Made by a program: the position numbers and the translations under genes. Below the pieces are notes generated by a model. The model ran no database searches and was not told the origin of the DNA. It worked only from the letters and a program-made list of their open reading frames with translations. From the NCBI GenBank assembly GCA_020630335.1, contig JAHDBN010000008.1, positions 1 through 64,000 on the forward strand: a stretch of 64,000 nucleotides of DNA. The letters run 5' to 3'. The stretch comes from Bacteriovoracaceae bacterium. GTDB lineage: Bacteria; Bdellovibrionota; Bacteriovoracia; Bacteriovoracales; Bacteriovoracaceae. Shown piece by piece: positions 8,092 to 16,754 of the stretch. How positions within the stretch are numbered: the stretch's first letter is position 1; each line of letters starts with the position of its first letter.

Positions 8092-8763
8092 TTATTCTTT
8101 TATTAAATCGACTTTTACTGAACCGTGGTGAGAGTTAGCTTTTACTACCATTTCAGTAAACCTATCATTTAATAAAATAGTTTCATAGACCGCTTTATCC
8201 ATCTTATCAATCGTCACAACAACCCTAACTCTTTTTCCAAAATCAGATTTATTAAAATCATAAGCATAAAAATCATAATCAAATGCAAAATCAACTTTTT
8301 TAAATGTTGAAAATCTTTTTGTTTTAGGATTATACTTCTTCAAAACGACTTGAACTTTTGAATTATCATATTTAGAAACACCTGTAATTGATAATATTTT
8401 TTCATCTCCTGATATTTCACTTTTAGGATAACTCTCTATTCCTACTGTATATTGTGATTTCGCTTTTCCAAGAAGGGCGTGAACAGTTGTTTTATATCCT
8501 TTTTTTAATTTCACCTTTTTTTTAATACTCTCAAAGCTACTATATTCTAGTGTCATATTATAAGTACCAGCTTTGACATTATCGATATTAAACGTTCCAT
8601 CAATATCACTAATCGTTCCATCAATATACTCACCAGTCTTGATATCCTCTAAATAAAGAGAGGCTCCAATCAGTGCTGTCTCATCTGTAGCCTCTCCTAT
8701 AAAGCCACTTAATGATTGAGAAAAAGCAGTAAAGCTCATTAATAATAAAAATAAAAAATTCAT
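8092..8763 (-). CDS. exported protein with carboxypeptidase-regulatory-like domain
   Basis: The 223-residue protein has a signal peptide (about 1-15). Residues 18-95 look like a carboxypeptidase-regulatory-like beta-sandwich: SGFIGEATDETALIGASLYL, then GTISDIDGTFNIDNVKAGTYN. This fold is common at the start of secreted and outer-membrane proteins. The C-terminal 110 residues are not recognised. It is the last gene of the six-gene operon headed by the heme peroxidase and starts 2 bp after the interrupted lipoprotein gene. I infer a surface or adhesive role, not an enzymatic one. Confidence 0.65.
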   Translation of the reverse strand: MNFLFLLLMSFTAFSQSLSGFIGEATDETALIGASLYLEDIKTGEYIDGTISDIDGTFNIDNVKAGTYNMTLEYSSFESIKKKVKLKKGYKTTVHALLGKAKSQYTVGIESYPKSEISGDEKILSITGVSKYDNSKVQVVLKKYNPKTKRFSTFKKVDFAFDYDFYAYDFNKSDFGKRVRVVVTIDKMDKAVYETILLNDRFTEMVVKANSHHGSVKVDLIKE

Positions 8764-8765
8764 TC

Positions 8766-9353
8766 TTAATCCTTTTTGTTGTTATTTATAATCCATTTTA
8801 ATTCTATAGCAGTATTCTTAAAGGCAAAGCTTGGCTTAAAAACAGCTGAAAAGCTTTCAGAAAAACCAAAAATTCCAGGATAGCATGTAATGGCCTCTCC
8901 CCTATACCTTGCTCTAGAGTTATAATATTCTTTTGACATGCCTCTTTGACTGAATTCTTGCATTGAATTTCCAGACAAGACTTTCAAAAAACCTTTGTTT
9001 TTTACTCCGTTGTGAATCAATTCAGCTTCCCACTTATCTGAATTCAAAGCATTAGGATGATTTGAACTAATCATAACTTTAAAACAAGCTGACTTAGAAC
9101 TTAAAAGCTTTTGAATGCTTTTTTCTTTACCCTTCTTCCAAGATCTTAAATATGGTTGAGTCATAGGAATCGCATCTAAACTTGTAATATAAGGAGAATG
9201 AAAAGCATCTCCTTTTCTAATAAGATCTGCTTCTATTTCACTTTTTTTATAAACTCCATCTCCAATTAAATATTTTTTTTGAGACACTCCTAATTATTTC
9301 TGCATAGAAGCACACGAAACCAATAAAAAGCTGATCAATAATATAATTCTCAT
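8766..9353 (-). pseudogene. lipoprotein gene interrupted by an in-frame TAA stop
   Basis: An ATG at 9353 with AGG 7 bases upstream opens a frame encoding MRIILLISFLLVSCASMQK. This is a typical lipoprotein leader with lipobox LVSC (Cys14). Codon 20 is TAA (9296-9294). The same frame then stays open for 175 further codons to 8766. If translation restarted at the GTG (9287), the body (173 aa) would lack an export signal. AGGA abuts that GTG with no spacer, a poor ribosome site. The body is unrecognised. The simplest reading is a nonsense mutation (or sequencing error) in a membrane-anchored lipoprotein of the peroxidase operon. Stop-codon readthrough is possible but unsupported. Confidence 0.65.
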
Positions 9354-9361
9354 AATATTTC

Positions 9362-10312
9362 CTATTTTTTCTTATGAACTTCATGTCTAAAAAGAATTCC
9401 ATCATCCCCAAAAGAAGATGCCAAAAACTCCGAAGTAGTTATGATTTCTCCAATCTTCTTAGATACTTTCACATAATTAGGAATCATTGGAACTTTGTAT
9501 TTAGAATAATCAACTTTAGAGAACTCTGGGCCAAGGGCCCTTACTTCATAAAGCCTAGTCCCTTGAGGTATTTTCAAAAGATCTTCTCTTATATCGTGAG
9601 GAGTGGACTTTATTTGAGATTTTTTTGAATAGATAGGAACAAAAAACAACTGCACAGGAGTTTTTGATTTAATATTCTTTAAGCCTTTAGTGTTATAAAA
9701 ACTCATATCATCTACTTTTAATTGCTCTGCTTTATCTGTTACTTTTTCAAATATTTTTTTTACTAACTTTGCTCCAAAACCAGATCCAGTTGGAACAATA
9801 TTGGAAAGAGGATTAGAAAAGAAATTATAATTTTTCCCCTGTCCCTTCAAAGCATAGAGTGCCGAAATATTTGCACTATGAACCTTATCTCTAAAAACCT
9901 TTAGCGCTAAACCTGGAGCTACTCCTCTTTTCTTAGGATCAAATGTTAATGAAAGTCTTAATAAAGCACACTCTGCTCCCTGAAAGATTCCACTAAATTC
10001 AGAGTTTTCAGGGACAAATTTGACTTTGGCCATCGCTCCTCTTCTATGAAGATATTTCTTCCATCCTTTTGGACTAACATCTGAAAAGTTATTTACTTTC
10101 TTTTTCATACTCTGAAAAGACATTTTTACAACTTGAATAAATCCAAATTTTTCATACTTAGGTAATTTTTCATGTTTAGTTTTTAAAACTTTATCCCAAA
10201 GTAACTCTTGCTTCTCACAGCCCTTTAACTGTTCATATTGAGCAGGTAAGATCTCTTCAGCTCCAGCATTAAATAGAAAAAATAAAACAATAAGGATTTT
10301 CTTCATAGCCAT
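9362..10312 (-). CDS. exported catalase-fold heme protein, catalase-related
   Basis: The 316-residue protein has a signal peptide (about 1-18). Its core resembles the catalase superfamily: LHRRGAMAKVKF with H89 aligns with the catalase motif VHAKGAGAFG. Then come ALLRLSL (R119), RGVAPGLALKVF for the RGFAVKFY segment, and NYNFFSNPL for the NNTPIFF segment. It is much shorter than true catalases (about 480-700 aa), and the proximal RxxxY heme-ligand motif is not visible. Catalase-related enzymes of this size include allene oxide synthases that act on fatty-acid hydroperoxides. In an operon with an alpha-dioxygenase-like enzyme, a hydroperoxide-processing role is attractive but inferred. Confidence 0.55.
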   Translation of the reverse strand: MAMKKILIVLFFLFNAGAEEILPAQYEQLKGCEKQELLWDKVLKTKHEKLPKYEKFGFIQVVKMSFQSMKKKVNNFSDVSPKGWKKYLHRRGAMAKVKFVPENSEFSGIFQGAECALLRLSLTFDPKKRGVAPGLALKVFRDKVHSANISALYALKGQGKNYNFFSNPLSNIVPTGSGFGAKLVKKIFEKVTDKAEQLKVDDMSFYNTKGLKNIKSKTPVQLFFVPIYSKKSQIKSTPHDIREDLLKIPQGTRLYEVRALGPEFSKVDYSKYKVPMIPNYVKVSKKIGEIITTSEFLASSFGDDGILFRHEVHKKK

Positions 10313-10632
10313 TATAGATTCACGATAGAGTTAATAAGTACTTGTCCATATAATAGCTCTAAAGATTCAACTTCTTCTTTGTTCTGTATATCGATGATCT
10401 TTAATAAGCTTTTTAGTTTATCTTGAGAATTTGTACTTTGAGGTAAACTCTCCATTTTCTTTGAGAGAATGGAGTTATTTTTTATTTTCTGAGAAATACT
10501 TAATATCATTTTATCATCAAATGTTTCGGTCACCTTTTTGATTTTAATGAACCGATTCTTATAGTCATCTGCTGCAAAGCTTAAGACATTACTAAACATA
10601 AGAAAAAATGATATTAAGTATATTTTTTTCAA
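10312..10632 (-). CDS. small exported protein of the peroxidase operon
   Basis: The 106-residue protein has a signal peptide (about 1-21, ending SFAADD) and a mainly helical, Lys-rich mature part with no recognised domain. Its stop codon overlaps the next start by one base (TAATG), so it is translationally coupled to the catalase-fold gene. It lies 11 bp after the 308-residue gene. Function unknown; a small periplasmic partner of the neighbouring heme proteins is possible. Confidence 0.6.
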   Translation of the reverse strand: MKKIYLISFFLMFSNVLSFAADDYKNRFIKIKKVTETFDDKMILSISQKIKNNSILSKKMESLPQSTNSQDKLKSLLKIIDIQNKEEVESLELLYGQVLINSIVNL

Positions 10633-10643
10633 ATCTTTATCCT

Positions 10644-11570
10644 CTACTGCTCTTTATCTTCGTTTCCAAATTCTTCAAAATACATTTGAGAACCATATGG
10701 ATTACTTGGATCAATTAAAATCAACTCAACTGTTTTCATTACAGGAGAAGCATCATAAACATCAATAAACACACCAATTTTATCTTCAACTAAACTTGCT
10801 CCAGTACTTGCAACTTTCTCATTTTCTTGAAATGTAAACATACCTGGACCAGCTTCAATGATGTCAAATCTTCCTTGAATTAAAAGATCTCTATCTTTAA
10901 GAGTTTCTACATCAAAAACAGCAGTTGCTTCTTTTGTTTTCTTGTTAAAATCATCTAACAAGAAAAGAATATCGATATCTGCTTGCTTGTAACCTGGATT
11001 ATAAGGACCAGGTACATAAGAATCTTTCCAAGTTGACTTTAATGGAAATCTTCTTGTTTTCGTAAGTTTTAAATCAACAATTTGACCATTAATTACAGTT
11101 TTCAACACTGAATTTCTCATTGGCTTTCTTTCATTTGGATTAACTTGCAAGCTAGCGAACTCAGCACTTTCTTTAACTACAACTTTTCCATTTCTAACTT
11201 CTAGAGGCTTCATTCTAAATGTTCTAGAATTATGAACTCTTTCAAACTTATAGATTTTAATCCATTTTAATAATTCTTGAAGATATCCGTGTCTTCCCTT
11301 TCTAAAGATTTTCTTTTTCCCGGGCCTTAAAAAACTCCCAACAAAACCTTTTTCTTTGAATGGTTTTAAATATTCTAAAACTACTCCATAGTAACTATCT
11401 TGCTCACCAGCTATTGGCTTAAGAAAAAGTCCTACTTGTCTCTTTTCTCCATCATAATCAACTTTTCCAAAATATCTTCCTTCTAAATTCTTCATTTTGT
11501 AATTTGAAGTATTATTTTGCGAAAAAGCCGCTAAATTTAATCCTAATACTAATAATAATATTTTTTTCAT
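10644..11570 (-). CDS. exported protein of unknown function in the peroxidase operon
   Basis: The 308-residue protein has a signal peptide (about 1-17). The mature part looks beta-rich: alternating strands such as LEGRYFGKVDYDGEKRQVGLFL at the start and DKIGVFIDVYDASPVMKTVELILID near the end. There are no cysteines, heme motifs or known catalytic signatures. It is packed between the heme peroxidase (9 bp) and the 106-residue gene (11 bp), so it almost certainly acts with them. I do not recognise a family. Confidence 0.7.
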   Translation of the reverse strand: MKKILLLVLGLNLAAFSQNNTSNYKMKNLEGRYFGKVDYDGEKRQVGLFLKPIAGEQDSYYGVVLEYLKPFKEKGFVGSFLRPGKKKIFRKGRHGYLQELLKWIKIYKFERVHNSRTFRMKPLEVRNGKVVVKESAEFASLQVNPNERKPMRNSVLKTVINGQIVDLKLTKTRRFPLKSTWKDSYVPGPYNPGYKQADIDILFLLDDFNKKTKEATAVFDVETLKDRDLLIQGRFDIIEAGPGMFTFQENEKVASTGASLVEDKIGVFIDVYDASPVMKTVELILIDPSNPYGSQMYFEEFGNEDKEQ

Positions 11571-11579
11571 AACTATCTC

Positions 11580-13532
11580 CTAAAGTTTATTCCAAGGGTT
11601 AAACGCATTCTTCACTCCAAAAAGTGTCTTCTGAAGTCTTGGATGATGTCTTAAAAGAATAGTTTTCATATTATTATTATCAATCCAATCTAAACCTAAT
11701 TTTGTATAAGTTTCTTTGTTATAATCAGTTGTATAAAATCTATCAGCAACTAATCTTCTTGAGGCCATTACTACGAATACCTGAAAAGCAGTCTCTCCAA
11801 AACCAAAACCTGTTGGCCTATATTGCTCTGCTAAACAACCTACTAATAAATCAAGAGCTTCAATATCGTTATCATAAATCTTTTTAAGTTTTGCTAACTG
11901 AGCTTTATCAGAAGTTAATTGCTCAAAAGAAGTAAGAGGCTTCAAACGAAATTGTCTTCTGAACTCATTATATCTAGGAACATTTCTTTCTCTATCTCTT
12001 AAAATATCCATTGCAGCTAAATCCATTTTCCCTACAAAAGGAATAGACATGTTCATTAACTCTTTAGGGTAATTATTAAGAGTTAACTGCCCAGGATGCA
12101 TTTGACCAAAAGAATAAAAAAGGTCATCCATTTTGTTATTTTTAAGTAAGTTCCCAGACTTAGCTTCTCTAGTTTGATTTAAAGTAATTGCCTTAGCGTA
12201 TGATTTATCAGACATCTTTTTTAAAACCAAGTTATCTGGAAGCAAAGGGTGCATTCTATATACACTTACGAACTCTTCTGTCATTGAAAAAGGAACGTCT
12301 GCTAAATTTTTCTTTCCACCAACAATCCCTGAAGTCACTTCAGACTTTAAAATCTTCTCCCAAGGTTTTGATACTTTTCCTGAGTTATTAATTAAACCAT
12401 TCCAGTTTGCTTTCATTCCATGTTCTAATTTCTTAGAAGTTAAAATTGCTGGAGTCCACTCTACTGTATGAATTTTCGCCATTAATGCAGCAACAACAAG
12501 TCTTGCCTTTTGAAACAACTCCTCATCTTTCATACTTGGATATTTTTCAGAAAGCGCATCCGCCACAGCATTGTGCTCTTTAACAAAAAGATTATGTAAT
12601 AAACTTAAACCTACCCACCAGTTTCTGTTAAAACCTGTTTTCTCGACTCCATCTCCTCCAAGAGGAATATTACCATTATTATCAACAGTTAATTTTCCAC
12701 CTTTAAAAGATCTAAGAGAGTTTGTTTTTGCTGTAGAACTACCATAAACTTGAGATCCATCCCACCAGTGTGTAACTTCATTTTTAAATACATATGGAAA
12801 TCTAATATTTTCTCTTTTTGTTTTTGAAGAATCAATCATAGACTTTGGGAATACTAAAGTTTCACCTAATTTATCTGACTTATCTAAAGGCAAGAAAAAT
12901 GGCTTAACTTTAGAAGGATCTTCATTATCACCGTGGCTAAACCAATCATGAGTCATATACTGAATCCATGAAACGGCCATAAGATTTAGGAAATCTACAG
13001 GAAGAAATTTCTTTCTTTCTAGTAATTCCTTACTAATTGTTCTTGGATTCGGATAAAGAACATCATAGTTTTTTTGATTATCTATCATTGGATCAGTATT
13101 TCTTCCGAAACGAGTCCACACTGCACCCATTGTAGGATCTTCTATATCGTTACAATATCCTTCACTCACTCTATATGATGTCTTCCCTACACAATCTTCT
13201 TCAGTCTTTGGTCTTTCAACATAAGTGTCATATAAATTATGCTTATAAAGTTCTTTTCTAATTGAAGAAAGTTTTAGCAATCCTGGTAAAAACATTTTTC
13301 TATACCAAGTTGCCCATGGAGAAGATTCTTTTTCGAACTTAGAAACTTTCTTCCATTCTTTAGCTACTTTCTTTTCTTGCGCTTTTCTAATTTCTTTTCT
13401 TTCTTTTTCTCTTCTATCCTCTTCTTTTTTATCAGCAGGAGTAATAAGAGAATTTTTTACTTTGACTTGTGAAATTCCTGATAAAGAAATCAAAAGCACA
13501 AATGCCATAAATGGCGACATCATTTTTTTCAT
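11580..13532 (-). CDS. exported alpha-dioxygenase/cyclooxygenase-type heme peroxidase
   Basis: This is an animal-type heme peroxidase of 650 residues. The ATG at 13532 is chosen because AAAGGA lies 8-9 bases upstream and a signal peptide follows. Family signatures occur in order: WIQYMTHDWF with distal His195, WWDGSQVYGS, NWWVGLSLLHNLFVKEHN, SVYRMHPLLPD and RDRERNVPRYNEFRR. The YRMH segment has Tyr425 three residues before His428, as in plant fatty-acid alpha-dioxygenases, where these are the radical Tyr and the proximal heme ligand. Known members add O2 to fatty acids to give hydroperoxides. Here it is predicted to be periplasmic or secreted. It heads a leftward operon that includes a catalase-fold protein. 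Confidence 0.85.
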   Translation of the reverse strand: MKKMMSPFMAFVLLISLSGISQVKVKNSLITPADKKEEDRREKERKEIRKAQEKKVAKEWKKVSKFEKESSPWATWYRKMFLPGLLKLSSIRKELYKHNLYDTYVERPKTEEDCVGKTSYRVSEGYCNDIEDPTMGAVWTRFGRNTDPMIDNQKNYDVLYPNPRTISKELLERKKFLPVDFLNLMAVSWIQYMTHDWFSHGDNEDPSKVKPFFLPLDKSDKLGETLVFPKSMIDSSKTKRENIRFPYVFKNEVTHWWDGSQVYGSSTAKTNSLRSFKGGKLTVDNNGNIPLGGDGVEKTGFNRNWWVGLSLLHNLFVKEHNAVADALSEKYPSMKDEELFQKARLVVAALMAKIHTVEWTPAILTSKKLEHGMKANWNGLINNSGKVSKPWEKILKSEVTSGIVGGKKNLADVPFSMTEEFVSVYRMHPLLPDNLVLKKMSDKSYAKAITLNQTREAKSGNLLKNNKMDDLFYSFGQMHPGQLTLNNYPKELMNMSIPFVGKMDLAAMDILRDRERNVPRYNEFRRQFRLKPLTSFEQLTSDKAQLAKLKKIYDNDIEALDLLVGCLAEQYRPTGFGFGETAFQVFVVMASRRLVADRFYTTDYNKETYTKLGLDWIDNNNMKTILLRHHPRLQKTLFGVKNAFNPWNKL

Positions 13533-13705: not shown

Positions 13706-13712
13706 TATGTAC
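13680..13712. promoter_or_regulatory. two palindromes overlapping the promoter, probable operators
   Basis: ACTAGCTAGT (13680-13689) is a perfect 10-bp palindrome over the -35 end. GTACATATATGTAC (13699-13712) is a perfect 14-bp palindrome over the -10 and start point. Dimeric XRE regulators bind such sites. Their position suggests that the adjacent XRE protein represses its own operon. Confidence 0.5.
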
Positions 13713-14453
13713 ATGAAGAACTTTCTATTAAATCTTAAACTAGCTAGAAAAAAGGCTGGCTTCACTCAAGAGCAAGTAGAAAGCACCCTAAATCTTAGAA
13801 GTCTTACCATAAAGGATTATGAAACTGGGCGACTTAAAATACCTGTAGAAACAGCAATGAAACTTGCTGATCTTTATAGAACAGATCTAAACTCTCTTTT
13901 TGGTAAATATGAATCAATCCGTCATGCTGTAGATTTGAGCTCGATTCATGGCCTTTGGGATAAAAAATTCTCAAATATTGTCCTCTTAGATCCAATTATC
14001 AAGGCCCATGTCGAGAATTATCGGGCAGAGTACATAAATCACTCCTTACTTGATGTCTTGCTTATTGAGTTTAATGACAAAGAAAAAAAGAGCTATGTAC
14101 TTGAAATTACTAAGTTTATGAATTCTTTAATTGGTATTGACGGCAAGGTCCTTCCCAGTGAAATTAGCTTAAGAAATAGCCTGCTTGATCACTTTGATTG
14201 TATGAATCAAGTTGCTAAGACTAAAGAGTTTATTAATTCTCCTTATTATCCTAAAGATCTACCTAAAGTACTTTATCACTTACCTTCTAAGCACTTTATT
14301 TTGTGGTTATTATTTTTCTTGGCTCACTTTGATAAAGAAGTTCATTATAGAGAAGAAGAATACTTAAAAGTTAGTGCTGAGAATTTAAGAATTACAAAAT
14401 CAAATTATAATTTTATTTCGCAGTTTTTTATTTCAGGAGAATTTAATGCTTAA
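13713..14453 (+). CDS. XRE-family regulator with C-terminal TerB-like domain
   Basis: The 246-residue protein begins with a helix-turn-helix of the Cro/CI (HTH_3) type at about residues 1-62: LARKKAGFTQEQVESTLNL, then KDYETGRLKIPVETAMKLA. The C-terminal part is helical and has two acidic segments like TerB-type domains, IGIDGKVLPSEISL and AHFDKEVHYREEEYL. An in-frame ATG also exists at 13707. I chose 13713 because the predicted transcription start falls there. It overlaps the NfeD gene by 8 bp. Inferred role: stress-sensing repressor of the membrane-integrity operon that follows. Confidence 0.75.
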   Translation: MKNFLLNLKLARKKAGFTQEQVESTLNLRSLTIKDYETGRLKIPVETAMKLADLYRTDLNSLFGKYESIRHAVDLSSIHGLWDKKFSNIVLLDPIIKAHVENYRAEYINHSLLDVLLIEFNDKEKKSYVLEITKFMNSLIGIDGKVLPSEISLRNSLLDHFDCMNQVAKTKEFINSPYYPKDLPKVLYHLPSKHFILWLLFFLAHFDKEVHYREEEYLKVSAENLRITKSNYNFISQFFISGEFNA

Positions 14454-14883
14454 TTTATATATTTGGGCAATTACAGGTTTAATTCTTATTTTAGCCGAAA
14501 TGATTATTCCTGGTGGAGTAATCATTTTTTTAGGCCTTGGATGTTTAACCGTTGCTAGCTCTATTTATTTCGGACTTATAACAAATGTGGTCACTGCTTT
14601 TTTGACTTTCTTTATTTCAAGTCTCGCCTATTTATTAATTTTAAGAAGTTTTTTTATGAAATACTTCGAAGGTGACTCAGTAATTGAAAACACTGATGAA
14701 GATATAGAAGCTGCCAATAGCATTGTGCAAGTTATAGAGTTAATAACTCCTTACAAGGCAGGTCGGGTTAAATTCAGAGACTCTACTTGGGTGGCTGAAA
14801 GTGATTATGAAATAGCCAGTGGAGAAAAAGCAATAATAAAAAAAAGAGTTGGAAATAAATGGATCGTTGATCCTGTTAAATAA
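14446..14883 (+). CDS. NfeD-like membrane protein
   Basis: The 145-residue protein has two to three N-terminal membrane spans (about 3-70, including AEMIIPGGVIIFLGLG, the usual NfeD signature region). A C-terminal OB-fold-like domain follows (about 85-145, ending GNKWIVDPVK). The short NfeD/YbbK form is normally encoded beside SPFH proteins and works with them in the membrane. The same is seen here: it overlaps the regulator by 8 bp and precedes the first SPFH gene by 9 bp. Confidence 0.85.
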   Translation: MLNLYIWAITGLILILAEMIIPGGVIIFLGLGCLTVASSIYFGLITNVVTAFLTFFISSLAYLLILRSFFMKYFEGDSVIENTDEDIEAANSIVQVIELITPYKAGRVKFRDSTWVAESDYEIASGEKAIIKKRVGNKWIVDPVK

Positions 14884-14892
14884 GGAGAAGTT

Positions 14893-15822
14893 ATGTTCAC
14901 AGCATTTACAGTGCTTATGTTAATTGTACTCTTTGTTCTTTGGAATACAGTCGTTGTTGTGCCTGAAAGAGAACAATGTGTAGTAGAGAGGTTAGGAAAA
15001 TTTAAAGGTGTCTTGAAATCAGGGATACACTTTCTTATTCCATTTTTTGATAGAATTGCCTACAGACATGAAGCGAGAGAGCAAGTTTTTGATATCCCAC
15101 CTCAAACCTGTATCACTCAAGACAATATGCAGGTTTCCATTGATGGCCTTGTGTATCTGAAAGTCATTGATTCAAAATTAGCAAGTTATGGTATTGGAAA
15201 CTATAAGAATGCATCTATTAATCTTGCTCAAACTACTATGCGTTCAGAAGTAGGTAAACTTTCTTTAGCAAAGGCATTTTCAGAGCGAGACTCTCTTAAT
15301 GAAAAAATTGTTTTAGAAGTTGATAAGGCCAGTGATTCTTGGGGGATAAAAGTTCTGAGATATGAAATTAAAAACATTAGACCAAGTAATAATGTCATTT
15401 CGACTCTTGAGAAACAAATGGAAGCAGAGAGAGAAAAAAGAGCAGAAATAACTTTGGCCCTTGCTGACAAAGAAAATAGAATTATTCTTTCTGAGGGCGA
15501 AAAAACTGAAGCAATTAATATTTCTGAAGGAGAGAAACAAAGTAAAATTAATCTTTCATTAGGAAGAGCTAAGGAAATTCAATTAATCTCTGAAGCAACT
15601 GCGGAAGGAATCAGAACTGTAGCTGAAGCTGTTAATTCCCAAGCAGGTGCAAAAGCAGTCAAGCTACAACTTGTGGAACAGTTTATTAGAGAAGTTGGAG
15701 AAGTGATGGATAAATCTAAAATCTCTGTATTACCAACTGAAATGGCAAATATTAAAGGATTTTTCGAAGGAGCTTCAAAGGTTTCTAAAACAGTATCAAC
15801 CTCAACAACAGGAGCTTTATAA
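14893..15822 (+). CDS. SPFH/band 7 protein (QmcA/stomatin-like), copy 1
   Basis: The 309-residue protein has one N-terminal membrane span (about 2-20). An SPFH domain follows from VVVVPEREQCVVERLGKFKGVLKSG through IRPSNNVI. A charged coiled coil (about 175-235, EAEREKRAEI...) and a short C-terminal tail complete it. These proteins form large ring assemblies in membranes and pair with NfeD proteases or chaperones. GGAG lies before the ATG. It overlaps the paralogous next gene by one base (TAATG), so the two are translated together and may form a hetero-oligomer as HflK and HflC do. Confidence 0.9.
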   Translation: MFTAFTVLMLIVLFVLWNTVVVVPEREQCVVERLGKFKGVLKSGIHFLIPFFDRIAYRHEAREQVFDIPPQTCITQDNMQVSIDGLVYLKVIDSKLASYGIGNYKNASINLAQTTMRSEVGKLSLAKAFSERDSLNEKIVLEVDKASDSWGIKVLRYEIKNIRPSNNVISTLEKQMEAEREKRAEITLALADKENRIILSEGEKTEAINISEGEKQSKINLSLGRAKEIQLISEATAEGIRTVAEAVNSQAGAKAVKLQLVEQFIREVGEVMDKSKISVLPTEMANIKGFFEGASKVSKTVSTSTTGAL

Positions 15823-16754
15823 TGGGTTTAGAGAATTTAGGTATCACAGATGCACTTAATTTATTTTTTTGGGCAGCACTCTTTTTAATTGTCATTGTAA
15901 AGTTTTTTCAATCAATTAGACTTGTCCCTACTAAAAAAGCATATATCATTGAACGCTTAGGTAAGTATCAAAAAACTCTTGGCCCAGGATTTCATGCTCT
16001 TATTCCTTTTATCGATAGAGTTGCTTTCATTCAAGACTTAAAAGAAAGAACTATTGATGTTCCTCCGCAAGATTGCTTCTCTAAAGATGAAGTCAATGTA
16101 GTGGTTGATGGAGTTATTTATTTATCAGTTATTAATCCTGCAACTGCAAGTTATGGTGTAACTAATTTTTCTTATGCTGCTGTTGAGTTAGCTCAAACAA
16201 CAACCAGATCAATTATCGGTACATTAGCTCTAGATAGGACCTTTGAAGAAAGAGAACTCATAAGTTCAAAAGTTGTAGAAGTTTTAAATCAAGCAGGAGA
16301 ATCTTGGGGAATCAGGGTTCATAGATATGAAATTAAAAACATCATGCCTCCTCATAGTGTTCAGAACGCAATGGAAAAGCAAGTGAATGCTGAAAGAGAA
16401 AGACTAGCAATCCTGGCTAAATCACAAGGTGATAAACAAAGTAGAATTAATCATTCTGAAGGTATCAAAATGGAAATGATTAATCATTCTGAAGGACAAA
16501 TGCAAAAACTAATTAACGAAGCTGAAGGGCAGGCTCAAGAGATTTTAACCATTGCTAACGCAACGGCTGAATCTATTAAGAAAATTTCATCTGCTTTAAG
16601 TGTACCTGGTGGTGAGAAAGCATATAATCTTAAGTTAGGTGAAAAATACCTCAACCAGATGGGGAAACTCGCTGATGGAAAAGTCGAAGTCATTGTGCCA
16701 GCAGATATTAGCAATTTTAATAAATGGCTTAAGTCTGTTGATTTAGAATTCTAA
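15822..16754 (+). CDS. SPFH/band 7 protein (QmcA/stomatin-like), copy 2
   Basis: The 310-residue paralogue of the preceding gene has the same plan: an N-terminal span (about 12-30), an SPFH domain beginning RLVPTKKAYIIERLGKYQKTLGPG, then a coiled coil starting VNAERERLAILAK. Conserved landmarks shared by both copies include FxxPFxDRVAF/IAY, IDVPPQ/FDIPPQ and ELAQTTTRS/NLAQTTMRS. The tandem pair with a one-base overlap suggests an obligate partner. Last clear gene of the XRE-NfeD-SPFH operon. An inverted repeat follows at 16760-16794. Confidence 0.9.
   Translation: MGLENLGITDALNLFFWAALFLIVIVKFFQSIRLVPTKKAYIIERLGKYQKTLGPGFHALIPFIDRVAFIQDLKERTIDVPPQDCFSKDEVNVVVDGVIYLSVINPATASYGVTNFSYAAVELAQTTTRSIIGTLALDRTFEERELISSKVVEVLNQAGESWGIRVHRYEIKNIMPPHSVQNAMEKQVNAERERLAILAKSQGDKQSRINHSEGIKMEMINHSEGQMQKLINEAEGQAQEILTIANATAESIKKISSALSVPGGEKAYNLKLGEKYLNQMGKLADGKVEVIVPADISNFNKWLKSVDLEF

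Follow-up and report, generated by a model that had tools for sequence, protein, structure and literature searches.

Alpha-dioxygenases (alpha-DOX) produce 2-hydroperoxy acids, from which reduction yields 2-hydroxy acids and loss of CO2 yields Cn-1 aldehydes (PMC9305512). The fate of this product in bacteria is poorly known. A catalase-related partner has been described for another dioxygenase: according to the papers that cite Brash 2014 (PMC9579011, PMC13049297), the linoleate 10S-dioxygenase (10S-DOX) of Nostoc punctiforme, a COX-family dioxygenase, works with a catalase-related 10S-hydroperoxide lyase. The coral cAOS-LOX and the catalase-LOX fusions of Anabaena and Acaryochloris join a lipid dioxygenase to a catalase-fold domain (PMC5617202, PMC11719350). 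In the coral allene oxide synthase (AOS), the heme residues are R64, R102, and R360, the distal residues are T66, H67, and N137, and the proximal residue is Y353 (PMC5617202). Our literature search, which stopped largely short of subscription journals, returned nothing on a fusion of alpha-DOX with catalase and no oxylipin or alpha-DOX work in Bacteriovorax or Halobacteriovorax.

Here, we describe a locus in a 64,000-nucleotide stretch of DNA, referred to below as the window, which is part of a 2.36-Mb assembly (G000); its relatives in a named collection belong to Bacteriovoracaceae, Halobacteriovorax, and bacteria of a similar predatory type. The locus encodes an alpha-DOX, a putative catalase-fold protein of 316 residues (CAT316), and a protein of 308 residues (E308). 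As in the systems above, a lipid dioxygenase is paired with a catalase-like protein, here one whose catalase fold is putative. It differs from the Nostoc punctiforme system, compared here by its description in the citing papers, in the dioxygenase subtype and in a CAT316 family that lacks the proximal-Tyr helix, and from the coral, Anabaena, and Acaryochloris fusions in using a heme alpha-DOX rather than a lipoxygenase; the heme of the coral enzyme is also Tyr-ligated. The Nostoc 10S-DOX with its hydroperoxide lyase is the nearest precedent. This conserved set of exported proteins, centered on DOX, suggests a bacterial pathway for lipid peroxides that has been little studied, together with a new protein family.

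Organization of the Locus

Six open reading frames (ORFs), all leftward on the minus strand, occupy positions 8092–13532, as confirmed on the sequence. The intergenic gaps are 9, 11, -1, 8, and 2 bp when the lipoprotein leader is taken as the start of gene 5; the six leftward genes with gaps of -1 to 11 bp described in an earlier sequence-only reading were thus recovered with the same coordinates and gaps. Signal peptides were called by eye, without a predictor, and on this basis the proteins read as exported, in agreement with the same reading. The features are as follows.

11580–13532, minus strand: gene 1, alpha-dioxygenase (DOX), 650 aa, assigned by Pfam An_peroxidase, PDB matches, and residue mapping; putative N-terminal signal peptide
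10644–11570, minus strand: gene 2, E308, 308 aa, new family with no Pfam match, all-beta in its model and predicted to be exported
10312–10632, minus strand: gene 3, P106, 106 aa, TTG start, small and predicted exported, with same-genus homologues
9362–10312, minus strand: gene 4, CAT316, 316 aa, predicted exported, characterized by an AF2 model, Foldseek, a 34-row alignment, and DOX fusions
8766–9353, minus strand: gene 5, lipoprotein gene with an in-frame TAA (leader 9353–9297, remainder of the frame 9287–8766)
8092–8763, minus strand: gene 6, predicted exported protein of 223 aa with a carboxypeptidase-regulatory-like domain (Pfam CarbopepD_reg_2, 1.4e-10)
13707–14453, plus strand: HTH_3 protein (Pfam HTH_3, 1.3e-07), divergent and upstream of DOX

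The group is flanked on the left by converging sdh genes and on the right by the divergent HTH protein, a possible regulator. A scan for promoters and terminators performed no better than on shuffled sequences. Adjoining the divergent HTH gene, positions 14446–16754 of the window encode, as recognized by eye, a short NfeD-like protein and then a pair of SPFH/stomatin-like proteins.

The in-frame TAA of gene 5 (9296–9294) lies 19 codons past the lipoprotein ATG, just beyond the lipobox leader, and is either a nonsense mutation or an assembly error. Only two homologues of the lipoprotein were found in 129 genomes, both intact and unlinked (congeners G001 and G003), and the 223-aa ORF has no homologue in the module loci of relatives. 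Both genes were considered as members of the module and rejected on these grounds. Judged from sequence comparison, only genes 1–4 make up the unit: DOX, E308, and CAT316 widely, and P106 within the genus.

The Alpha-Dioxygenase

DOX matches Pfam An_peroxidase with an E-value of 1.2e-109. Its PDB matches are the plant (rice/Arabidopsis) alpha-dioxygenases at 1e-107 to 4.1e-110, the best being the rice fatty acid alpha-oxidase (4.1e-110), and the next kind of structure is lactoperoxidase at 3.6e-28. Identity to rice alpha-DOX is 38.5% over 559 aligned residues. All six functional residues of the rice enzyme (H157, H311, T316, Y379, H382, and R559) have counterparts in DOX (H195, H355, T360, Y425, H428, and R593, respectively). 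By this mapping, H195 is the distal His, H355/T360/R593 form the carboxylate site, Y425 is the radical Tyr, and H428 is the proximal His. Some of these roles are well established; those of most of the six are given for the rice enzyme in PMC8720084. The distal His, catalytic Tyr, and proximal His (H195, Y425, and H428) are invariant in eight aligned DOX sequences. The motifs THDW, YRMH, and RDRERNVPRYNEFRR, on which the alpha-DOX identity had originally been proposed, are present, and together with the Pfam and rice matches they uphold it. Gene 1 is, on this residue mapping, predicted to encode a genuine fatty-acid alpha-dioxygenase with a complete active site.

The An_peroxidase domain, the distal His, the Tyr/proximal His pair, and the carboxylate site (H311/T316/R559 in rice numbering) are common to DOX and the plant and cyanobacterial alpha-dioxygenases (rice, Arabidopsis, CalDOX, and LepDOX). 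Unlike these, DOX begins with a sequence that resembles a signal peptide, replaced by a lipobox in four of the eight aligned sequences (by eye and a simple pattern), and it comes together with E308 and a partner of putative catalase fold.

Fold and Conserved Residues of CAT316

CAT316 has no match in Pfam and no meaningful match in NCBIfam, and Pfam catalase (PF00199) matches none of 15 CAT316-family members. An AlphaFold (AF2) model computed from a 15-row alignment has a mean pLDDT of 88.6 and a pTM of 0.88. A Foldseek search of this model against the PDB gave just two significant matches, the 33-kDa catalase-related protein or mini-catalase of M. avium paratuberculosis (3e4w; E 4.8e-5, probability 1.00, TM-score 0.36) and the coral allene oxide synthase (1u5u; E 3.3e-4, probability 0.97, TM-score 0.35); no match was found in a viral fold library. 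The model therefore appears to resemble the catalase fold in part, the TM-scores being low. For the catalase fold proposed in the sequence-only reading, the two top matches are both catalase-fold proteins, and the TM-scores are about 0.36.

Catalase ancestry could not be secured from sequence alone with Pfam, NCBIfam, phmmer/hmmsearch against the PDB, or hhalign. Profile alignment of CAT316 with mini-catalases by hhalign is weak (P 0.001–0.003), in the expected register R-x-S ... G-x-A-x-K, with scores of 31–34 against about 18–25 for controls and 28 for one signal-peptide alignment; a weak match to full catalases disappeared when a larger alignment was used. Such evidence by itself is not sufficient for kinship of CAT316 with catalases. 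The catalase-core motifs noted earlier in the 316-aa protein are real, though weak in sequence, and the Foldseek comparison supports them.

With residues numbered from the second ATG (10306), the positions D76, K84, H87, G106, R117, S119, A134, K136, F186, P217, R240, S297, D301, and H308 are invariant in an alignment of 34 members, fused domains included. By motif, and without superposition, K84-x-x-H87 corresponds to the distal-site R-x-x-H and R117-x-S119 to the R-x-S that follows, so that the counterparts of the distal His, Arg, and Ser (H87, R117, and S119) are kept in 34 of 34 relatives. The proximal helix, including its Tyr and the third Arg, is absent throughout the family, whose chains end at most about 20 residues past H308. 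From a similar point, related mini-catalases run on via HRPLG to N-R-x-R-x-x-x-Y, the proximal helix. The alignment indicates that this loss is family-wide and no truncation special to the genome of the window. Because the family stops before the proximal-Tyr helix, CAT316 is, by its sequence features, neither a canonical catalase nor a canonical AOS. The mini-catalase MAP-2744c (3e4w) and the y4iL-like proteins are nearest to it in fold; domains of their type are also fused to alpha-DOX in other bacteria, and they retain the R-x-x-x-Y helix before which CAT316 stops.

E308 and P106

E308 has no Pfam match. Its AF2 model is all-beta with a pLDDT of 83.8 and has no significant fold match in the PDB; lipocalin identity was considered and rejected, all calycin-like matches being below threshold. 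Most relatives of E308 begin with a lipobox (by eye and a simple pattern). Searches for E308 in Pseudomonas, Marinibactrum, Teredinibacter, and Calothrix records and in plasmids gave no match. A homologue of P106 lies between E308 and DOX in G002 (phmmer), and a look-alike ORF occupies the equivalent place in G003 (by eye); P106 is confined to three genomes of one genus. Of the 308-aa and 106-aa proteins, suggested earlier as possible new components, E308 is a new and widely co-inherited family, and P106 occurs within the genus only. Neither E308 nor CAT316 is recognized by Pfam.

Co-Inheritance of the Module

A survey of 129 genomes of the class found alpha-DOX in 26 of them. All 26 contain CAT316, each above 250 bits (a level reached in 32 genomes overall), and all 26 contain E308 (33 genomes overall); the hypergeometric p values for co-occurrence with DOX are 7e-22 and 3e-21, respectively, with shared ancestry left uncorrected. 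DOX and CAT316 are neighbors in 20 of the 26 genomes, CAT316 and E308 in 22, and every genome has one or both of these adjacencies; in G023, which is among the 26, DOX is present only as a fragment on a separate contig. The order and strand of the module genes vary between genomes; therefore, linkage has been maintained through rearrangement. The operon grouping put forward earlier, which a lack of conservation in relatives was to refute, survived this check: DOX, the 308-aa protein, and CAT316 are grouped in relatives, the 106-aa protein is so within the genus only, and genes 5 and 6 fall outside.

Across 369 genomes of the phylum, DOX occurs in 41, CAT316 in 99, and both in 37 against 11 expected. 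In a second family, the DOX/CAT316 pair is found 101–490 bp apart in nine genomes. DOX and CAT316 distances over 29 taxa correlate with a Pearson r of 0.58 (Mantel 0/2000) and a Spearman coefficient of only 0.18, a correlation that could be explained by species history alone. Within the class, 31 of the 57 genomes with the CAT316 family lack DOX. Because many members sit in such genomes, the family has other roles as well.

Fusions and Substituted Partners

DOX followed by CAT316 forms one protein of about 913–956 aa in five Pseudomonas genomes, Marinibactrum, and Teredinibacter, and in one genome (G189; L190) an E308 domain is fused ahead of DOX with CAT316 adjoining. Four of the 41 phylum genomes with DOX have no CAT316 (G230, G282, G187, and G056). 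In G230, DOX is followed within the same protein by a mini-catalase domain (1e-63) that retains the proximal-Tyr helix, and in G282 by such a domain (3.9e-23) cut by the contig end; the stretches examined of G187 and G056, the latter near a contig end, gave no match to CAT316 and no mini-catalase. In Rhizobium and Phyllobacterium plasmids, a catalase (mini-catalase) domain lies N-terminal to DOX, with PF00199 above cut-off in both and a match of the Rhizobium domain to 3e4w at 9e-12. These sequence comparisons indicate that alpha-DOX gained catalase-fold partners by several different routes, which is the strongest evidence for a functional partnership.

The Pseudomonas fusion adjoins type II secretion genes (secretin and GspE) and a LuxR-type ATPase regulator (L072 499–10634; also L071 and L073), and it has no obvious signal peptide.

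Proposed Pathway and Alternative Explanations

We consider it reasonably probable that the locus encodes an envelope module for fatty-acid alpha-oxidation, with 2-hydroperoxy fatty acids produced by alpha-DOX and handled by CAT316 and with E308 as an accessory protein. In this pathway, alpha-DOX would place O2 on C2 of free fatty acids, and CAT316, which appears placed to decide the fate of the 2-hydroperoxide, would receive the product and direct it rather than let it decay. CAT316 may reduce it to the 2-hydroxy acid, dehydrate it to the 2-oxo acid, or assist its decarboxylation, which gives the shorter aldehyde. Heme is probably still bound by CAT316, by way of its conserved distal and propionate-side residues and a non-Tyr proximal ligand, for which the invariant C-terminal H308 would be the best candidate, and E308 probably aids the pair in the envelope by lipid delivery or scaffolding. 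We favor alpha-oxidation because alpha-DOX has all six key residues; because the only significant fold matches of CAT316 are both catalase-fold hemoproteins; because DOX, CAT316, and E308 are co-inherited and adjacent, with DOX and CAT316 fused in some genera; because mini-catalase domains are fused to DOX in two genomes of the phylum without CAT316 and also in Rhizobium and Phyllobacterium; and because a Calothrix plasmid carries the DOX/CAT316 pair together with genes for a GMC oxidoreductase and a patatin. The reading is weakened by CAT316-family genes in DOX-less genomes and by G187 and G056, in whose examined stretches neither partner was found; heme binding and catalysis by CAT316 are weakened by the lack of a profile match, the TM-scores of 0.36, and the missing proximal-Tyr helix. 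A bolder version, which we hold to be possible and on the whole doubtful, makes CAT316 a new class of catalase-fold heme enzyme, its proximal Tyr replaced by the invariant C-terminal His, dedicated to converting 2-hydroperoxy fatty acids from alpha-DOX, as part of an envelope oxylipin pathway that is widespread in bacteria and in which the new E308 family also takes part. Prey or host lipids as possible targets are a suggestion of the sequence-only reading.

CAT316 might instead be a heme-free relic of the catalase fold and no enzyme, with a role in carrying lipid or hydroperoxide or in partnering alpha-DOX structurally. This would accord with the helix missing in 34 of 34 members, which end within about 20 residues past H308, and with the lack of a profile match between CAT316 and heme catalases, but the counterparts of the distal His, the propionate Arg/Lys, and the distal Ser are invariant, which a mere scaffold would not need, and mini-catalase domains substitute for CAT316 in two related genomes; we judge such a relic rather unlikely. 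Less likely again is a role in setting the peroxide tone, by which CAT316 would clear H2O2 or lipid hydroperoxide and so control the activation of alpha-DOX or the damage that it does, outside the pathway itself: the fusions and tight pairing suggest a hand-over of substrate, and the sole functional catalase-related partner found for a COX-like dioxygenase, that of Nostoc as described in citing papers, is a hydroperoxide lyase, even though CAT316 has a catalase-type fold by Foldseek and H2O2 activates alpha-DOX according to the title of a rice alpha-DOX structure paper listed in PMC13049297. Allene oxide formation needs an allylic double bond, which a 2-hydroperoxide of the alpha-DOX type does not have, and such chemistry is therefore unlikely here. 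That CAT316 is a catalase-related AOS acting on the alpha-DOX product, as proposed in the sequence-only reading, is accordingly judged very improbable: coral AOS ranks second in Foldseek, but its heme is ligated by Y353 (PMC5617202), and the corresponding helix is missing throughout the CAT316 family.

In the favored alpha-oxidation pathway, CAT316, which is found next to DOX, inherited with it, fused to it, or replaced by a mini-catalase domain, is a direct candidate for the step after alpha-DOX, and the same genes occur in Calothrix and in Pseudomonas, which can be cultured. Heme binding by CAT316 without a proximal Tyr, if true, would break a defining rule of the catalase superfamily.

Neighboring Genes in Other Genomes

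A plasmid of Calothrix PCC 6303 carries in a row DOX, CAT316 (annotated as a hypothetical protein), and genes for a GMC oxidoreductase and a patatin-like phospholipase; a small ORF and a transposase gene separate CAT316 from DOX. A metallo-beta-lactamase-fold hydrolase lies beside the set in many Bdellovibrionota loci, and elsewhere the vicinity of DOX includes alpha/beta hydrolases or thiamine-diphosphate enzymes. These neighbors would fit with a release of lipids and with further oxidation; the six-gene group of the window has none of these hydrolase, oxidoreductase, or thiamine-diphosphate neighbors.

The Lactamase_B_2/B_3 hydrolase, possibly a lipid hydrolase, recurs by the module in several genera of two families (L060, L061, L066, L067, L068, L190, and L191). 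On Qingshengfaniella and Streptomyces plasmids (L083 and L086), alpha-DOX lies amid genes for an FAD oxidase, a P450, a benzoylformate decarboxylase, and an alpha/beta hydrolase, which are possible alpha-oxidation clusters. The genome of the window has a second, distant CAT316-family gene (335 aa; G000:C31:26837-27583, L195 1652–2659) away from alpha-DOX. Pseudomonas veronii plasmids (L080 and L081) encode a CAT316-family protein of 28% identity with no alpha-DOX near, adjoining a gene annotated as an NAD(P)/FAD-dependent oxidoreductase.
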